Shown: positions 11,144-21,164 of the stretch, piece by piece
Numbering within the stretch: the stretch's first letter is position 1
How the letters are laid out: every line of letters starts with the position of its first letter
From: Candidatus Vecturithrix granuli
GTDB lineage: Bacteria > Moduliflexota > Moduliflexia > Moduliflexales > Moduliflexaceae
NCBI GenBank assembly: GCA_000739535.1
Contig: DF820477.1
Coordinates: 1 to 64,000, forward strand
Reading direction: 5' to 3'
DNA: 64,000 bases
Notes under the pieces: generated by a model
Told to the model about the DNA's origin: nothing
Databases searched by the model: none
Seen by the model: the letters and a program-made list of their open reading frames with translations, nothing else
Made by a program: the position numbers and the translations under genes

Positions 11144-11350
11144 TGAGAAATTATAGATCAAAAAAGTGAAGACTATCCGAAAATATTTACAAAAATTCAC
11201 TTGAACTTTCTGTTCACAGGGCGTAACCTGAAAGAAAAAGATGTGGAGCGAGCCATTGAACTGGCGCGCACCAAATATTGCCCGGTCTGGGCGATGTTGA
11301 AAGACGCAGTCGAGATTATGTATGCTTACGAAATTCGTGCAAGCGAATAA
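11144..11350 (+). pseudogene. OsmC-family peroxide reductase, 3' remnant
   Basis: Frame 3 reads EIIDQKSEDYPKIFTKIHLN, then FLFTGRNL, VERAIELARTKYCPVWAML and ends EIMYAYEIRASE plus stop. This matches the C-terminal half of OsmC/Ohr-type proteins, including the conserved second cysteine in the KYC motif. A TGA at 11144 and the lack of the N-terminal half (about 70 residues, with the first catalytic cysteine) show it is truncated. It ends 15 bp before the selenoprotein gene, so the pair may once have been a peroxide or thiol-redox operon. The upstream 10868-11143 stretch is AT-rich and holds no other gene. Confidence 0.6.
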
Positions 11351-11365
11351 CAGGAGGGTCATGTT

Positions 11366-12010
11366 ATGGCAATTTTAAAAAAACGCGATCAAAAAGCCGT
11401 TGCAAAAGAATTTGAAAAGCTTGTGGAACCCGTGAAGATCGTCTATTTCACGCAGGAGATGGAATGTCAATTTTGCGAGCAAACCCGTGAATTGCTGCAA
11501 GAAGTGGCTGAACTTTCCGACAAGCTCAGCCTGGAAGTCTATGACTTTGTGAAAGATAAGGACAAAGCCTTGCAGTATCGCATTGATAAAATTCCTGCCA
11601 CAGTTATTGAAGGAAAAAAGGATCATGGCATCCGTTTTTTTGGCGTGCCCTCGGGCTATGAATTTTCAACCCTGTTAGGAAGCATGATCGAGGTTTCTAC
11701 AGGGGAATCCGGACTTTCCGAGAAAACGAAGTCCCTGATCGCAAAGATTAACACGCCCATTCATATCCAGGTCTTTGTGACCCCCACCTGACCGTATTGC
11801 CCGGGTGCCGTCAGTTTGGCGCACAAATTAGCGTTAGCAAGCGATGCGATTCAGGGCGACATGGTCGAAGCGATTGAATTTCCGCATTTAGCCGCGAAAT
11901 ATGGCGTGATGGGCGTTCCCAAAACCGTGATTAACGACGAAATCGAATTTGAAGGGGCTGTGCCGGAAGAGATTTTCGTCTCGCACCTGATGAGCGCGTT
12001 AAGCAGCTAA
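11366..12010 (+). CDS. selenocysteine-containing thioredoxin-fold oxidoreductase (PDO/glutaredoxin-like)
   Basis: Read with the TGA at 11789-11791 as selenocysteine, one frame gives 214 residues with two thioredoxin folds. Domain 1 has FTQEMECQFCEQT with C34 and C37, and a cis-proline in IDKIPATVI. Domain 2 has FVTPT-Sec142-PYC145, and its own cis-proline in GVMGVPKTVI. The UGA sits exactly where homologous protein disulfide oxidoreductases have the first cysteine of CPYC, and both sides are in frame and family-like. The likely role is cytosolic thiol-disulfide exchange. AGGAGG 8 bases upstream fixes the start. An annotation that stops at 11791 would lose the second active site. It needs SelA/SelB/SelC/SelD, which are not in this window. 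Confidence 0.88.
11805..11822 (+). promoter_or_regulatory. candidate bacterial SECIS stem-loop
   Basis: Starting 13 bases after the UGA, GTGCC pairs with GGCGC (one G-U) around the 8-base loop GTCAGTTT. The loop begins with G about 18 bases downstream of the UGA. Bacterial SECIS hairpins recognised by SelB lie inside the coding region just after UGA and usually have a G among the first loop bases, so this fits. The stem is short and not tested by folding. Confidence 0.6.
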
Positions 12011-14810: not shown

Positions 14811-14839
14811 TTGACAAAGACTTTGAACTCTGCCATATT
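14811..14839 (+). promoter_or_regulatory. probable sigma-70 promoter of the defence operon
   Basis: TTGACA at 14811-14816, then 17 bases, then CATATT at 14834-14839 (four of six -10 bases). It is 41 bases before the methyltransferase ATG. The position at the head of a run of same-strand genes supports it. Confidence 0.5.
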
Positions 14840-14879
14840 TATAGTTATAATTACTACGTACAAGGAGAATATAATTCCG

Positions 14880-16064
14880 ATGCATTTAATTAAATCTATT
14901 CATCCTTTTCCAGCGCGAATGGCTCCGGAAATTGCGTTAGCTGCTTTATCTGATTTACCTGCGGGGTCAATTGTTCTTGATCCTATGATGGGATCAGGGA
15001 CGGTTTTACGTATGGCATCCGAATGTCAGCATACAGGAATTGGTTTCGACACAGATCCGTTAGCGGTGTTGCTGACAAGGGTATGGACAGCACCAATAGA
15101 TGGAAAAATTTTTCAGGAGACGGCAAGAGAGATAATAACTCAAGCAAAGGAGATGCAAGCAGACAATTGTTTTCTTCCCTGGATTGATAATGATGAAGAA
15201 ACCGGAAAATTTATCGACTTTTGGTTTGCCCAGGAGCAGCAAGGTGATCTCCGAAAGCTCGCTAACATTATTTATCCATTGCGTGATCCTATAGGTGATG
15301 CATTACGAGTAGCTATGAGTAGGCTTATTATTACTAAGAAACATGGTGCATCATTAGCCTGGGATGTGTCACACGGCCGCCCACATCGAGTTCGGCAAGA
15401 AAATGATTTCAATGTACTGGAGGAATTTCAAAAGTCAGTAGATTTTTTAGCGACACGTTTACAATCTCAACAGCCAAAAGGGCATGTAAATGTAAAACTT
15501 GGAGATGCTCGTTGTTTAGAGGATATACCGGCATCCTATATTGATGTGATGATTACCTCACCACCATACTTAAATGCAATAGATTATGTCCGCGCTCATA
15601 AATTCTCGCTGGTTTGGTTTGGTTATAACATCCCTGAACTACGATGTATTCGGGCGAATAATATTGGAGCAGAGCGTTCCTATGAATCTGACGCCAATCT
15701 TACATTAGCTGAAAAACTGACCGTTTCAATGGGAGAATTGGGATGTCTTAAACAGAACCACAGGAAGATGATTGCCAGGTATGTATTAGACCTGTTTCAC
15801 ATGCTGAAAGAGACAGGTCGCGTATTGAAGTCACAGGGAAAAGCGATATTCGTTGTTGGGAATTCATGCCTGTCTGACGTGTTCATAAAAAACACGCAGG
15901 CAGTAAAAAATGCGGCTCAACTTCTTGGATTAGAACTGCTCGAAGAGCAAAAACGTGAACTTCCTCCGAATCGCAGATACTTGCCGCCCCCAACACAACA
16001 GAAGGGATCTGCTCTCAGAAAGCGTATGAGAACGGAGTCTGTACTGACTTTTATGAAACCATAG
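14880..16064 (+). CDS. site-specific DNA methyltransferase (N4-C or N6-A type)
   Basis: 394 residues from the ATG at 14880 (AAGGAG upstream); an earlier TTG falls inside the promoter. The order is HPFPARMAPEIALAAL, motif I LDPMMGSGTVL at residues 33-43, GIGFDTDPLAVLL, then a long insert and motif IV TSPPYLNAIDYVRAH at about 226-240. The SPPY tetrapeptide marks amino-methyltransferases of DNA. The insert between I and IV may hold the target-recognition region. It heads a run of six same-strand genes ending in a HerA ATPase, so it probably marks self DNA for that system. Confidence 0.82.
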   Translation: MHLIKSIHPFPARMAPEIALAALSDLPAGSIVLDPMMGSGTVLRMASECQHTGIGFDTDPLAVLLTRVWTAPIDGKIFQETAREIITQAKEMQADNCFLPWIDNDEETGKFIDFWFAQEQQGDLRKLANIIYPLRDPIGDALRVAMSRLIITKKHGASLAWDVSHGRPHRVRQENDFNVLEEFQKSVDFLATRLQSQQPKGHVNVKLGDARCLEDIPASYIDVMITSPPYLNAIDYVRAHKFSLVWFGYNIPELRCIRANNIGAERSYESDANLTLAEKLTVSMGELGCLKQNHRKMIARYVLDLFHMLKETGRVLKSQGKAIFVVGNSCLSDVFIKNTQAVKNAAQLLGLELLEEQKRELPPNRRYLPPPTQQKGSALRKRMRTESVLTFMKP

Positions 16065-16095
16065 GTAAAAGGAGGCATTATCTAATACAGGAACT

Positions 16096-16704
16096 ATGGC
16101 ATCAGCAACGGATTACGAACGACAATTGCACGAACGACTGTTGCAGAAAGAGGAAACCGCATCGGCTGAATTGTGTTGCCATTTTCTGGAACCCCTGATA
16201 CAGCGTTTCAAAAGGATATTCTGGGATGTTGCCTTGCGGGATGAAACTCTAATATGCGATGCCGTTACCGATGCCCTCTTGAATTATATTGACAATCCCT
16301 CCCAATACGATCCGCAACGCAGAAGTTTAGAAGGCTATCTTAAAATGTCTGCCGAAGGCGATCTGAAAAATGCCCTAGACAAAGAAAAGCGACGGCAAGA
16401 ACATTTTGAAAAAAAACCTGTCGAGCTTTCATTAATTTCTCGGAAAGGAATCATGAAAGGAGAAAGTACTCCTGAACAACAGATCGTCACCAAAGAAATA
16501 CAGGAACAACTCCAAAGAATTTTTCCAGAAAAATCCGATCAGGGGCTTGCAGATGCAATTTTGTCAGGCGTACGAGAGACAAGCCATTATGTAGAGATTC
16601 TTGGCATTACTCACCTCCCGGAACATGAACAAAGAATTCAGGTGAAACGGGCAAAAGATCGAATCAAAGTAAAACTTAAACGGACAAATTGGAACAAGTT
16701 GTAG
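16096..16704 (+). CDS. RNA polymerase sigma-factor-like protein
   Basis: A 202-residue protein with a sigma-70-like plan. A region-2-like helical part contains DAVTDALLNYIDNPSQYDP, RSLEGYLKMSAEGDLKNAL and DKEKRRQEHF (residues 50-110), comparable to the segment of ECF factors that binds core and the -10. A shorter C-terminal helical part (YVEILGITHLPEHEQRIQVK, then RAKDRIKVKLKR) resembles region 4. Similarity is by pattern only. The ribosome-binding site is weak: AGGAGG lies 22 bases away. The next genes follow with 10-bp spacing and a 4-bp overlap, so it belongs to a three-gene unit with the small protein and the metallopeptidase. Confidence 0.6.
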   Translation: MASATDYERQLHERLLQKEETASAELCCHFLEPLIQRFKRIFWDVALRDETLICDAVTDALLNYIDNPSQYDPQRRSLEGYLKMSAEGDLKNALDKEKRRQEHFEKKPVELSLISRKGIMKGESTPEQQIVTKEIQEQLQRIFPEKSDQGLADAILSGVRETSHYVEILGITHLPEHEQRIQVKRAKDRIKVKLKRTNWNKL

Positions 16705-16714
16705 GATTACAACT

Positions 16715-17116
16715 ATGGGCAACAAAATAACACATCAGAAATTTTTAATAAAGAAAGTATCGTCGCGAAGAGACTATTTTGCGTTCTTTATTGTACAATA
16801 TCAACAGCATGAACAGTTGGATGACGATCAGATAAAGTCCTTCCTTGAGTGTTCTGATGAGAATTTCTTTCGCCTTGCTCTTTGCCGTGTTTCTGACATA
16901 CAGGCTGACACATTTGCTGAAAAAATTCAAAAAATTGCAGATTTTACAACAATTCCTGTCATGAAACTTGCCCAGATACTCAAGCGAGTTTCAGGTTTAG
17001 AAGTTATACAACAAGCTGAAGAAAAGTCTTATGAAGAAAGTTTTCTCTTAGCTGCGCGGCAAAAAGCTGAAAACGAAAAAGATACAAACAACGAGCCTGA
17101 GCACGAGGAGTCGTGA
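16715..17116 (+). CDS. hypothetical protein between sigma-like and ImmA/IrrE genes
   Basis: A 133-residue protein I do not recognise. The N-terminus is basic (KITHQKFLIKKVSSRRDYF), the middle is helical (LDDDQIKSFLECSDENFFRL), and the C-terminus is acidic and probably disordered (KDTNNEPEHEES). No signal or membrane segment. Its stop overlaps the GTG of the metallopeptidase gene (GTGA, 17113-17116), so the two are coupled. By analogy with ImmA-ImmR pairs it could be the protein cleaved by the peptidase, or an anti-sigma; this is inference from position only. Confidence 0.6.
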   Translation: MGNKITHQKFLIKKVSSRRDYFAFFIVQYQQHEQLDDDQIKSFLECSDENFFRLALCRVSDIQADTFAEKIQKIADFTTIPVMKLAQILKRVSGLEVIQQAEEKSYEESFLLAARQKAENEKDTNNEPEHEES

Positions 17117-17874
17117 ATTTCCTTCCATTAACAGCGCATATTTCTGATATTGCTGAATCTTTCTGGAAAAAAGCAGGTGGTGTAACCTGTTGGCCCTGCG
17201 ATCTTGAGCGAGCCATTGCTCTGGTGTTGCCGCTTGATATTGTTCTCCTTTCCGACCTTACGATCAAAAGAATAGAAGAGTGGTTCCATCAGCGGCACAC
17301 CTATTACCAATTTCCTGGCAAACGAACACGATTACATGGATGTTTACTTGTGTATCGAGGTGTTGGATTTGTGTTCATTGATGGCTCTGATTCCAAAGAA
17401 GAACGGTTGTTTACGCTAGCTCATGAAGTCAGCCATTTTATCGTAGAATATGTACAGCCAAGATTAAAGGCCTGTGAATTATTGGGCGAGGAGATTATCG
17501 AGGTGTTAGATGGACTACGCCCGCCATCTGTAGAGGAGCGTATAGAGAGTATCATGAGCGCAATAAATATTAAACCCCATGTTCACCTTTTAGAACATGG
17601 GGGTACCGGAGCATCTGCCCGATCCTCCATCTGGCAGGCGGAAGATCGCGCCGACGAACTTGCTCTTGAATTGGTGGCTCCTGCTGAAATCGTTCTTAGT
17701 GACTTAAAAGCTACTTTCGACAGCATGTCATATTTTGAGTGTTGCCATGTAGCAGCAGATATACTGACTCAAAAATTTGGCCTTCCGGGGAATGTCGCTA
17801 AAACCTATGCTCGCCAGCTTGCTCAAGCACTTACTGGCGGACCTTCTGTTCTGTCATCATTAGGACTTGAATAA
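17113..17874 (+). CDS. ImmA/IrrE-family metallopeptidase
   Basis: 253 residues from a GTG that overlaps the preceding stop. The zinc motif is FTLAHEVSHFI (HEVSH at 104-108), and a downstream EDRADELALELVAP near residue 190 supplies the third ligand-region glutamate, as in ImmA/IrrE (DUF955) peptidases. Family members cleave a repressor or regulator to switch on mobile-element or stress genes. Here the obvious targets are the neighbouring sigma-like and small proteins. Cytosolic. The fold is clear; the target is inferred. Confidence 0.85.
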   Translation: MNFLPLTAHISDIAESFWKKAGGVTCWPCDLERAIALVLPLDIVLLSDLTIKRIEEWFHQRHTYYQFPGKRTRLHGCLLVYRGVGFVFIDGSDSKEERLFTLAHEVSHFIVEYVQPRLKACELLGEEIIEVLDGLRPPSVEERIESIMSAINIKPHVHLLEHGGTGASARSSIWQAEDRADELALELVAPAEIVLSDLKATFDSMSYFECCHVAADILTQKFGLPGNVAKTYARQLAQALTGGPSVLSSLGLE

Positions 17875-17984
17875 AAAATCAAAAAATGTGTCGAACTTTT
17901 GCGAGTGCATTGGAATAGGTTTATAAAAGAGGAAATAAAAACTCAAACACACACAAACCATTAAAAGAAGGATCGCATAATACA

Positions 17985-19190
17985 ATGGAACAACCAGCAT
18001 ATACAATAGTCAACAATGAGAGTAGCAAAAGCGTTGATGTCCAGGAAGAGTTTGAAAACGCTATTATTGAGACGCTTGATCTCGATACCTGGTCATACGG
18101 TGAAAATCTGCTCGAACAATATGCGCGGTTAGAACGAGAAGTTCGAGACGCTGTTGCAGATGAAGAGAACGTTATTAAGCAAATTCGTGAAAATGTGTTT
18201 CCAAGAATAGCGAAAGGAAGACGGAGTGTCGAAAATTCAGGATTACACAAATTTGATACCGAAATGATTGAACAAGCCCATAAAGGCTTATTATTCAATG
18301 GTGGTGTTGAAGCATGTGATGGGACTGTGGTGATACATGATACACTTCCTCTCACAATTACACAAGTTGGAGTTTGCCTGACCTCATATCATGGGCAGCA
18401 AGGGAGTTACGTGCATCGCTTATATCGTCGTGATTTCAGAGTGCGTGGCGAGGACCCTGTGAAAGAAGCCCTGGACATGCTTGAGAGACGAAGTAAACGG
18501 GAAGCTTATAATAGTAATGATGACGCTGATCCGTTAAGTAGTTTAGCAAGACGTGGGGTTATGGCGTATGCAGAACGCGCAATTCTTCTTCAAAGGTCTC
18601 AGGCACGATGGCGTATGGGACATGGAAATCCGGCTCCGTATGAATTGCTGACAGGATTTTGGGCGAGTCGTCCAGAAATGACCAAGGCAGCGCTTGACAT
18701 TATGCGTCGTATGGTTCTCGAACATCAGCGTTTTGTTTTTATCCCAAGCGCTCCGCGACAGCGGGAGCTTTTAACGCTCGGAAACGCCCTGAGACCTCTT
18801 GAGTACTTGATTCTATTTACTCTTGAAAAAGATTTGGAGAGAATGATTGAAAGTGGAGGCGCTCGGAAACGAAATATGATCCGTGATGACATGTTTACAT
18901 TTGCAAGAGAAGTCGGTTCTCAAATAGTGATTGGACTGTATCGGGCCTCAAAATTTTCTCCTGCCTATCTGTTTTATGCACATAAAGATCATGCAAAAAC
19001 GGCTGCTCTCATTGCGATGGCGGATAGTTGCCTGCAAGAACACCGAGGTTTCCCAATGTTAATTGATATTGCAGATCATCTTTGCCGGAGTACGTTTGGT
19101 GCAGACGGTTTTATTTCCTCAGTACAAGAAGCGTATGCCGATGCGGGACAACCCTTCCGGTATCTACCAGAGCGAGAAACACGCCGTTAA
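17985..19190 (+). CDS. NurA-like nuclease candidate paired with HerA
   Basis: A 401-residue protein without membrane segments. An N-terminal helical part leads into NGGVEACDGTVVIHDTLPL near residue 103, comparable to the VDGS strand of NurA that carries a metal-binding Asp. The later block GHGNPAPYELLTGFW and the C-terminal GFPMLIDIADHLCRSTFG also have NurA-like placement. It is immediately upstream of a HerA ATPase, the usual partner of NurA in DNA-end resection and in several antiphage systems. The family call rests on pattern plus context; it could be another HerA-associated effector. Confidence 0.5.
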   Translation: MEQPAYTIVNNESSKSVDVQEEFENAIIETLDLDTWSYGENLLEQYARLEREVRDAVADEENVIKQIRENVFPRIAKGRRSVENSGLHKFDTEMIEQAHKGLLFNGGVEACDGTVVIHDTLPLTITQVGVCLTSYHGQQGSYVHRLYRRDFRVRGEDPVKEALDMLERRSKREAYNSNDDADPLSSLARRGVMAYAERAILLQRSQARWRMGHGNPAPYELLTGFWASRPEMTKAALDIMRRMVLEHQRFVFIPSAPRQRELLTLGNALRPLEYLILFTLEKDLERMIESGGARKRNMIRDDMFTFAREVGSQIVIGLYRASKFSPAYLFYAHKDHAKTAALIAMADSCLQEHRGFPMLIDIADHLCRSTFGADGFISSVQEAYADAGQPFRYLPERETRR

Positions 19191-19274
19191 TATTCTCCGT
19201 CAATAATACTCGTTTAGAGGTAATCACCACAAACGATTGATTCAGTGAAATGATACAATGAATGAGGTAACACT

Positions 19275-21164
19275 ATGGAAACACAAAATGGAACTATAAG
19301 ACTGGCATATAAACGTGATGATGATATAGCTGCTGAACTTCCGGATGATATTTTCAAAGAATCATTAGCCCGTGAGATTGAGTCTGCCGGAGGGGAATAT
19401 CAAGAAGATCCGGCATTTGAAGGATCCGTTGGCATCACAATGTTTGATGTGCCGAACAGCAAAGATAATGTGTTGTCAGTTCTGGTTCCGTTCAAGGATG
19501 TTCGGAACATCCCCTCCCAATCTATTGTTGAGATCAGAAGTCGAAGTCGAGATAATGGTGGTGATGGCCGGGTGTATCGTGGTGTAGTCGTAGAAGGACC
19601 ATTCTATGAGCCTGACGGGCTCCGCGCTGATGCGCCTATCATTGTCACAACTTCGGTCAGAGGAACGATGTTCATGCCGAGATTTCATGGCAAACTTTCT
19701 ATAGAAGTGATCGGAGAAATCATTGATGGAACTATCGTTCCACCACGTTTCCGACCACTTCCAAACAGTCCAGTATTTGTGCTTGATGCTTCCCAAACAG
19801 CAGAGGCTCTGGGGATCGGTGGAAACATCACGTTGGGTTTGGCAATTGGACATGATGACATTGAGGTACAAATCCCCTCTGATAAAAAAATGGTTTTCGC
19901 ACGTCATTTTGGCATTCTAGGGACAACCGGAGGCGGGAAATCGACAACCGTATCAGGACTTATTAACCAATATCAACAAGCCGGAGTCAGTACCATTCTC
20001 ATAGACACTGAGGGAGAATACACTGCCCTGGATCAAAAAACAGAAGATCCAAATATGATAACAGCCCTTAAACGACGAGGCAAGGGACCCAAAGGCGTGA
20101 ATAATACGTATGTCTATCATCTTATCGGACGAGAGACAAACAATCCCGATCATCCCAATCTTATCCCATTTTCCCTTGAATTCGAACGATTATCGCCCTA
20201 TGCCGTCATGGAAATCCTGGGACTCAATGAAGCTCAACAACAGCGTTACCTTAAAGCGTATGATTTAGCCAAGCAGCTTCTGATGAAGCTCAAGATTTAT
20301 CCATCCACAGAGCAAGAACAAGAGGAATTAATGGAACTTGATGAAATGGAAAGAGGGTTTCCTCGTCTTTCTCTTGAGCTAATGTACGATGTTGTCCGAG
20401 CATGTGCAATGAGAGAGGCAAAAGAATTAAGAAACGAGAACAATGAGCCGAATTTTTATATTAGAACCAAATTCTTGTTTCAAGAAAAAGAGAAATTTCT
20501 GAATCTTATAGAGACTGCTGATTTACCCCATCATGTTTGGAGTTGGCGTAAAGTACAGGGACGCTTAAGTCAATTGCTTCGGCTCAAAATTTTTGATCAT
20601 TCAGCGGTACAGCCACTTAACTATCAAGAACTCACAACATCTGGTCGAATATCAATAATAGATCTGAGTGATACTGATTCACCTCAGATCAACAATCTTG
20701 TGATTGCTGAATTGTTGCGTGGAATGATGGACCAACAGAATGAAAATTATAAACAGATGCAAACGAATAACGAGCAACCAAATAAAGTCATGGTGATCAT
20801 CGAAGAAGCTCATGAATTTCTCTCCTCAGAGAGAATTAAACAAATGCCCGTCTTATGGCAACAGGTCGCCCGTATCGCCCGTCGGGGAAGGAAACGGTGG
20901 CTTGGATTGACATTTGTGACCCAACTTCCGCAGCATCTTCCAAATGAAGTATTGGGATTGATCAACAGTTATGTGTTACACAAAATAAACGACGCAGACG
21001 TGATTAGCCGCTTAAAACGCTCTATCGGTGGAATTGATGACAGTTTGTGGAGACGCCTGCCTAATCTTGCGGCCGGTCAGGCGATTGTCACCACGCCAAG
21101 TTTAACTCGACCTCTGCTTGTAGCAATTGATCCGACTCCCTGTAAGTTGCTCATGGTGGAATAA
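19275..21164 (+). CDS. HerA-type hexameric ATPase/helicase
   Basis: A 629-residue protein with an N-terminal HAS-barrel-like domain to about residue 190, then the FtsK/HerA ATPase core. Walker A is GTTGGGKST at 216-224, with a following IDTEGEYTAL strand. Walker B is VMVIIEEAHEFLS near residue 508. The arginine-rich segment RIARRGRKRW, then TFVTQLPQHLPNEV and the C-terminal ITTPSLTRPLLVAID are typical of HerA. It would be a DNA translocase driving the adjacent NurA-like protein. GAGGT precedes the ATG. It ends 46 bp before a convergent STAND gene. Confidence 0.92.
   Translation: METQNGTIRLAYKRDDDIAAELPDDIFKESLAREIESAGGEYQEDPAFEGSVGITMFDVPNSKDNVLSVLVPFKDVRNIPSQSIVEIRSRSRDNGGDGRVYRGVVVEGPFYEPDGLRADAPIIVTTSVRGTMFMPRFHGKLSIEVIGEIIDGTIVPPRFRPLPNSPVFVLDASQTAEALGIGGNITLGLAIGHDDIEVQIPSDKKMVFARHFGILGTTGGGKSTTVSGLINQYQQAGVSTILIDTEGEYTALDQKTEDPNMITALKRRGKGPKGVNNTYVYHLIGRETNNPDHPNLIPFSLEFERLSPYAVMEILGLNEAQQQRYLKAYDLAKQLLMKLKIYPSTEQEQEELMELDEMERGFPRLSLELMYDVVRACAMREAKELRNENNEPNFYIRTKFLFQEKEKFLNLIETADLPHHVWSWRKVQGRLSQLLRLKIFDHSAVQPLNYQELTTSGRISIIDLSDTDSPQINNLVIAELLRGMMDQQNENYKQMQTNNEQPNKVMVIIEEAHEFLSSERIKQMPVLWQQVARIARRGRKRWLGLTFVTQLPQHLPNEVLGLINSYVLHKINDADVISRLKRSIGGIDDSLWRRLPNLAAGQAIVTTPSLTRPLLVAIDPTPCKLLMVE

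Follow-up and report, generated by a model that had tools for sequence, protein, structure and literature searches.

The window (64,000 nucleotides, on contig C7 of its genome) contains a forward-strand reading frame that begins with ATG at 11366, ends with TAA at 12008-12010 and has a single internal stop, a TGA at 11789-11791 that constitutes codon 142. The preliminary description had placed one frame at 11366-12010 broken by this TGA alone, and these coordinates proved exact in both sequence and translation. When the TGA is read as selenocysteine (Sec, U), the frame yields 214 residues, with VTPT-U-PYC surrounding the site. The program-made list of open reading frames closes this frame at 11791 after 141 aa; standard annotation would therefore truncate the gene, as had also been anticipated. 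The features of the locus, which we refer to as Sec-PDO, are as follows:

11366..12010, + strand: Sec-PDO gene, predicted two-domain protein disulfide oxidoreductase (PDO) of 214 aa with Sec at residue 142 (from the frame and the TIGR02187 and 1a8l matches)
11465..11476, + strand: first redox motif CQFC, codons 34-37 (from translation and homologue alignment)
11789..11791, + strand: in-frame TGA, proposed Sec codon, position 1 of the second redox motif UPYC (from sequence and the alignments with 1a8l and homologues)
11798..11800, + strand: codon 145 (TGC), putative resolving Cys of UPYC (from translation and homologue alignment)
11353..11359, + strand: potential ribosome-binding site aggaggg, just 5' of the ATG (read from the sequence)
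11805..11822, + strand: predicted SECIS-like hairpin, stem GTGCC/GGCGC, loop 18-19 nt past the TGA (model from PMC13188914; borderline)
11167..11350, + strand: what is left of the osmC 3' end, a pseudogene; contig C20 of this genome carries osmC intact (from sequence comparison)

The translated product matches the TIGR02187 profile (NCBI name PDO_seleno_TRX, protein disulfide oxidoreductase) over residues 6-210 with 292.9 bits against a curated cut-off of 185 (E=1e-87), and a PDO of solved structure (PDB 1a8l) over residues 2-213 (E=2e-61). Judged by these scores, both matches are far beyond chance. Each thioredoxin fold carries one redox motif (CQFC at 34-37, with both cysteines retained, and UPYC at 142-145), and the 1a8l segment vtptCpyCp aligns over VTPT-U-PYCP such that the TGA falls opposite its first Cys. 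The full-length match with a redox motif in each half agrees with the earlier reading of a two-domain thioredoxin-fold protein, and the alignments with 1a8l and the homologues bear out that the TGA takes the place of the first Cys in a C-terminal CPYC. Sec-PDO resembles the Pyrococcus-type PDO (PDB 1a8l, 1j08) across both domains, with both redox motifs in register, but would carry Sec at position 1 of the second motif where the Pyrococcus-type proteins have Cys. The N-terminal domain of AhpF (PDB 1zyn, 1hyu) likewise consists of tandem thioredoxin folds, although that match is much weaker (E about 1e-11) and, unlike AhpF, Sec-PDO comprises the domain pair alone, without the reductase part.

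Scanning the genomes of 84,980 species for homologues returned 80 relatives and, once copies from the window's own phylum were added, 82 rows were readable at codon 142. The codon is TGC in 39 rows, TGT in 30 and TGA in 13; the Cys that the preliminary description expected PDO proteins to have at this position is thus found in 1a8l and in 69 of the 82 homologues. Since one TGA row (L117, PDSJ01000022.1) is the same gene as another (L023), the 13 rows represent 12 distinct genes, which belong to Chloroflexota (six), KSB3 (three), TA06, Spirochaetota and Actinomycetota (one each). The aligned part contains no further stop in the TGA rows and none in the Cys rows. Going by G003, a relative at family level, the window's genome belongs to KSB3. 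A full-length PDO copy is present in two of the three other genomes of the phylum; at 74% and 54% protein identity, each of these copies has TGA as codon 142, while the third genome, G002, gave a weak partial match only; the TGA is retained in three KSB3 genomes, including that of the window. A tree of 80 rows requires 8 changes between Sec and Cys, in either direction, of which at least five are forced by well-supported branches. Compared with G003, nucleotide differences at codon positions 1/2/3 number 26/12/80 before the TGA and 16/11/36 after it, giving third-position shares of 80/118 and 36/63, respectively (dS against G003 was saturated, and codon-position counts were used instead of dN/dS). 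The dominance of third-position differences past the TGA indicates that the downstream part evolves as protein.

These comparisons bear directly on whether the TGA could have arisen through faulty sequencing or assembly, or whether a nonsense mutation has recently struck a PDO gene of the ordinary Cys type. Such an origin would suit the Cys codon of those 69/82 homologues and the fact that selB was not seen in the assembly, and the adjacent osmC pseudogene and a broken second PDO copy demonstrate that decay does occur at the locus. However, two other KSB3 genomes, assembled separately, have the same TGA, as do nine more genes; a chance stop is not expected to fall on the catalytic Cys every time, and the remaining frame is intact and evolving as protein. 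We therefore consider error or recent mutation very unlikely. On this comparative evidence, the TGA is conserved and no accident.

Profile searches of the window's genome located selA on contig C20 (631 bits; cut-off 268) and selD on C16 (383 bits; cut-off 125), where yedF adjoins it, and a tRNA-Sec (selC) with a UCA anticodon lies on C17 (69.7 bits). The selD gene itself has an in-frame TGA at its catalytic Sec site (TTAAG-U-AAKMD; L021:2404-2406, minus strand, contig C16), so that a second gene in this genome appears to use the same code. Within the window, an Rfam scan at gathering thresholds gave no match and a tRNA scan found no tRNA. The preliminary description had named selA, selB, selC and selD as the genes to look for, and the lack of both selB and a Sec tRNA as evidence against selenocysteine. 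In the event selA, selC (UCA) and selD are present, and selB was not found in this assembly.

No TIGR00475 match exceeded the cut-off in the assembly (93.8% complete), and two sub-threshold matches checked as possible SelB proved to be CysN and TypA. The SelB wing domain is absent from the assembly, and the SelB of a relative, used as query, recovered general translation-type GTPases only. Full SelB is present in all three phylum relatives, and the assembly is a gapped draft (8.38 Mb in 21 contigs, contamination estimate 10.75%), with 28,797 N in the 864 kb read (3.3%). Given the gaps and the SelB of the relatives, we read the absence as missing sequence, the gene most likely lying in an assembly gap. 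Neighbours of selB were also sought by synteny at 40 contig ends of the genome; as even G003 and G001 differ in gene order around selB, this gave no information. Across the wider family, a strict-cut-off search was positive for selB in 6/10 TGA genomes and 18/35 Cys genomes, proportions that do not discriminate as to whether TGA tracks with selB. Among the four TGA genomes failing the strict search, in that of L070 SelB is cut off by a 100-N gap after its first 42 residues, and that of L085 has SelB split across two contig ends. The TGA genome of L084 holds only a weak contig-edge SelB piece, which may be another GTPase, and that of L120 showed no SelB. A lineage that truly lacks selB while keeping selA, selC, a Sec-type selD and Sec-PDO, and in which another elongation factor would deliver Sec to UGA, seems to us highly improbable.

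A further tRNA (C16:163011-163105; L004:1498-1594, minus strand) lies beside yedF and selD. At 58 bits it scores above the Rfam cut-off for tRNA-Sec, but ARAGORN calls it a tRNA-Cys (anticodon GCA). It is similar to the selC* tRNA-Cys reported from Firmicutes, Thermodesulfobacteria, Nitrospirae and Proteobacteria, KSB3 not being among them (PMC7609411).

Decoding without selenium, in which a selC*-type tRNA that reads UGA would insert Cys or near-cognate pairing would insert Trp, could draw on this selC*-like tRNA-Cys next to yedF and selD, on the selC* tRNAs with UCA anticodon known in other bacteria (PMC7609411) and on selB not having been seen. Against it, the anticodon of the C16 tRNA is read as GCA and a standard tRNA-Sec (UCA) is encoded on C17, the genome has both selA and yedF, and its selD has UGA at the classical Sec site; we regard such decoding as extremely improbable. 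That translation ends at the TGA, the functional product being a 141-residue N-terminal single-domain protein with CQFC, is scarcely credible: a start-to-stop ORF of 141 aa does exist, but in KSB3 the 72 codons past the TGA show conservation at the protein level, most differences falling on third positions, which implies that translation beyond the TGA is needed.

We compared the sequence shortly after the UGA with a published bSECIS model, which asks for a loop of 3-9 nt that has G among its first two bases, a stem of 4-16 bp, a distance of 16-37 nt from the UGA and an energy of -7.5 kcal/mol or lower (PMC13188914). The predicted hairpin at 11805-11822 lies within this model in stem, loop size and spacing (18-19 nt). 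With a closing G-U pair it reaches -7.6 kcal/mol with no G at the loop start, and without that pair it has the G at -6.6 kcal/mol; in the isolated hairpin the G and the energy thus occur in alternative stem forms, never both together. The generic fold of 11780-11840 is not unusual (z -0.87), and the case for a SECIS element consequently rests on position and comparison. Across the family, hairpins 3' of the codon average -8.3 kcal/mol in TGA genes (n=12) compared to -4.7 in Cys genes (n=69; Mann-Whitney p=2e-4, kinship not corrected), and the loop has a G among its first two bases in 10/12 TGA genes versus 28/69 Cys genes. Taken as predictions, these features amount to moderate evidence for a SECIS element in Sec-PDO.

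Directly upstream of the PDO gene of G003, on the same strand, stands an intact osmC, an arrangement suggestive of a common redox operon. The window's osmC has lost its 5' part and is a pseudogene; the intact osmC is on C20, beside a PDO copy without its middle and end. The two loci share a duplicated osmC-PDO segment of 91% identity (window 11167-11675 and L050, C20:894630-895190). Each duplicate has lost the half that the other retains, and the genome is left with one intact osmC and one intact Sec-PDO at separate places. Because this segment is common to both, it argues that C7, which holds the window, and C20, which holds selA, belong to a single organism, the estimated contamination of 10.75% notwithstanding. 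Elsewhere in the window, at 14811-21164, four + strand ORFs (417, 202, 253 and 401 aa) have no Pfam match at 1e-8 and are followed by a HerA-type ATPase at 19275-21164; this region is possibly an uncharacterised multi-gene system.

Taking the sequence evidence as a whole, the gene very probably encodes a PDO with two fused thioredoxin folds in which the UGA at codon 142 is decoded as selenocysteine. The Cys-to-Sec replacement at a redox centre that had been proposed at the outset gains support from the recurrent TGA/Cys exchange at one codon, together with selA, selC and a Sec-encoding selD. We postulate that SelA would convert Ser-tRNA-Sec using selenophosphate made by SelD, and that SelB, bound to the hairpin right after the UGA, would bring Sec-tRNA to the ribosome. 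In the protein, by analogy with the family, Sec142 would be the nucleophile attacking substrate disulfides and would form a selenenylsulfide with Cys145 as the resolving residue. The Sec142 centre could then exchange electrons with the CQFC centre, probably fed by a thioredoxin reductase, such that disulfides would be reduced or rearranged.

The family is already catalogued. TIGR02187 has been predicted with high confidence as a selenoprotein family and is listed as UxxC, 'Homolog of AhpF N-terminal domain (Grx-like domain protein)', with ABB15282.1 as representative (PMC13188914, Table 1). The same family had been listed in Carboxydothermus and Symbiobacterium (PMC1794560, 2006), and a glutaredoxin-like TGA cluster is represented by Carboxydothermus CHY_0740 (PMC1914089). 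Sec-PDO is likened to the catalogued Sec members (ABB15282.1) by family model and motif, sharing TIGR02187, UxxC and a single Sec, but differs from them in host group. In the literature library covered, a full-text search combining KSB3 with selenocysteine found no paper, and Sec-PDO, while belonging to a known selenoprotein family, is apparently unreported in KSB3. Gene callers will cut genes of this type at the catalytic residue. Our analysis credits the little-studied KSB3 group with a probable selenocysteine redox protein, and it indicates that the Sec form of the PDO family is scattered across at least five bacterial lineages, with Sec and Cys having been exchanged repeatedly at one codon.
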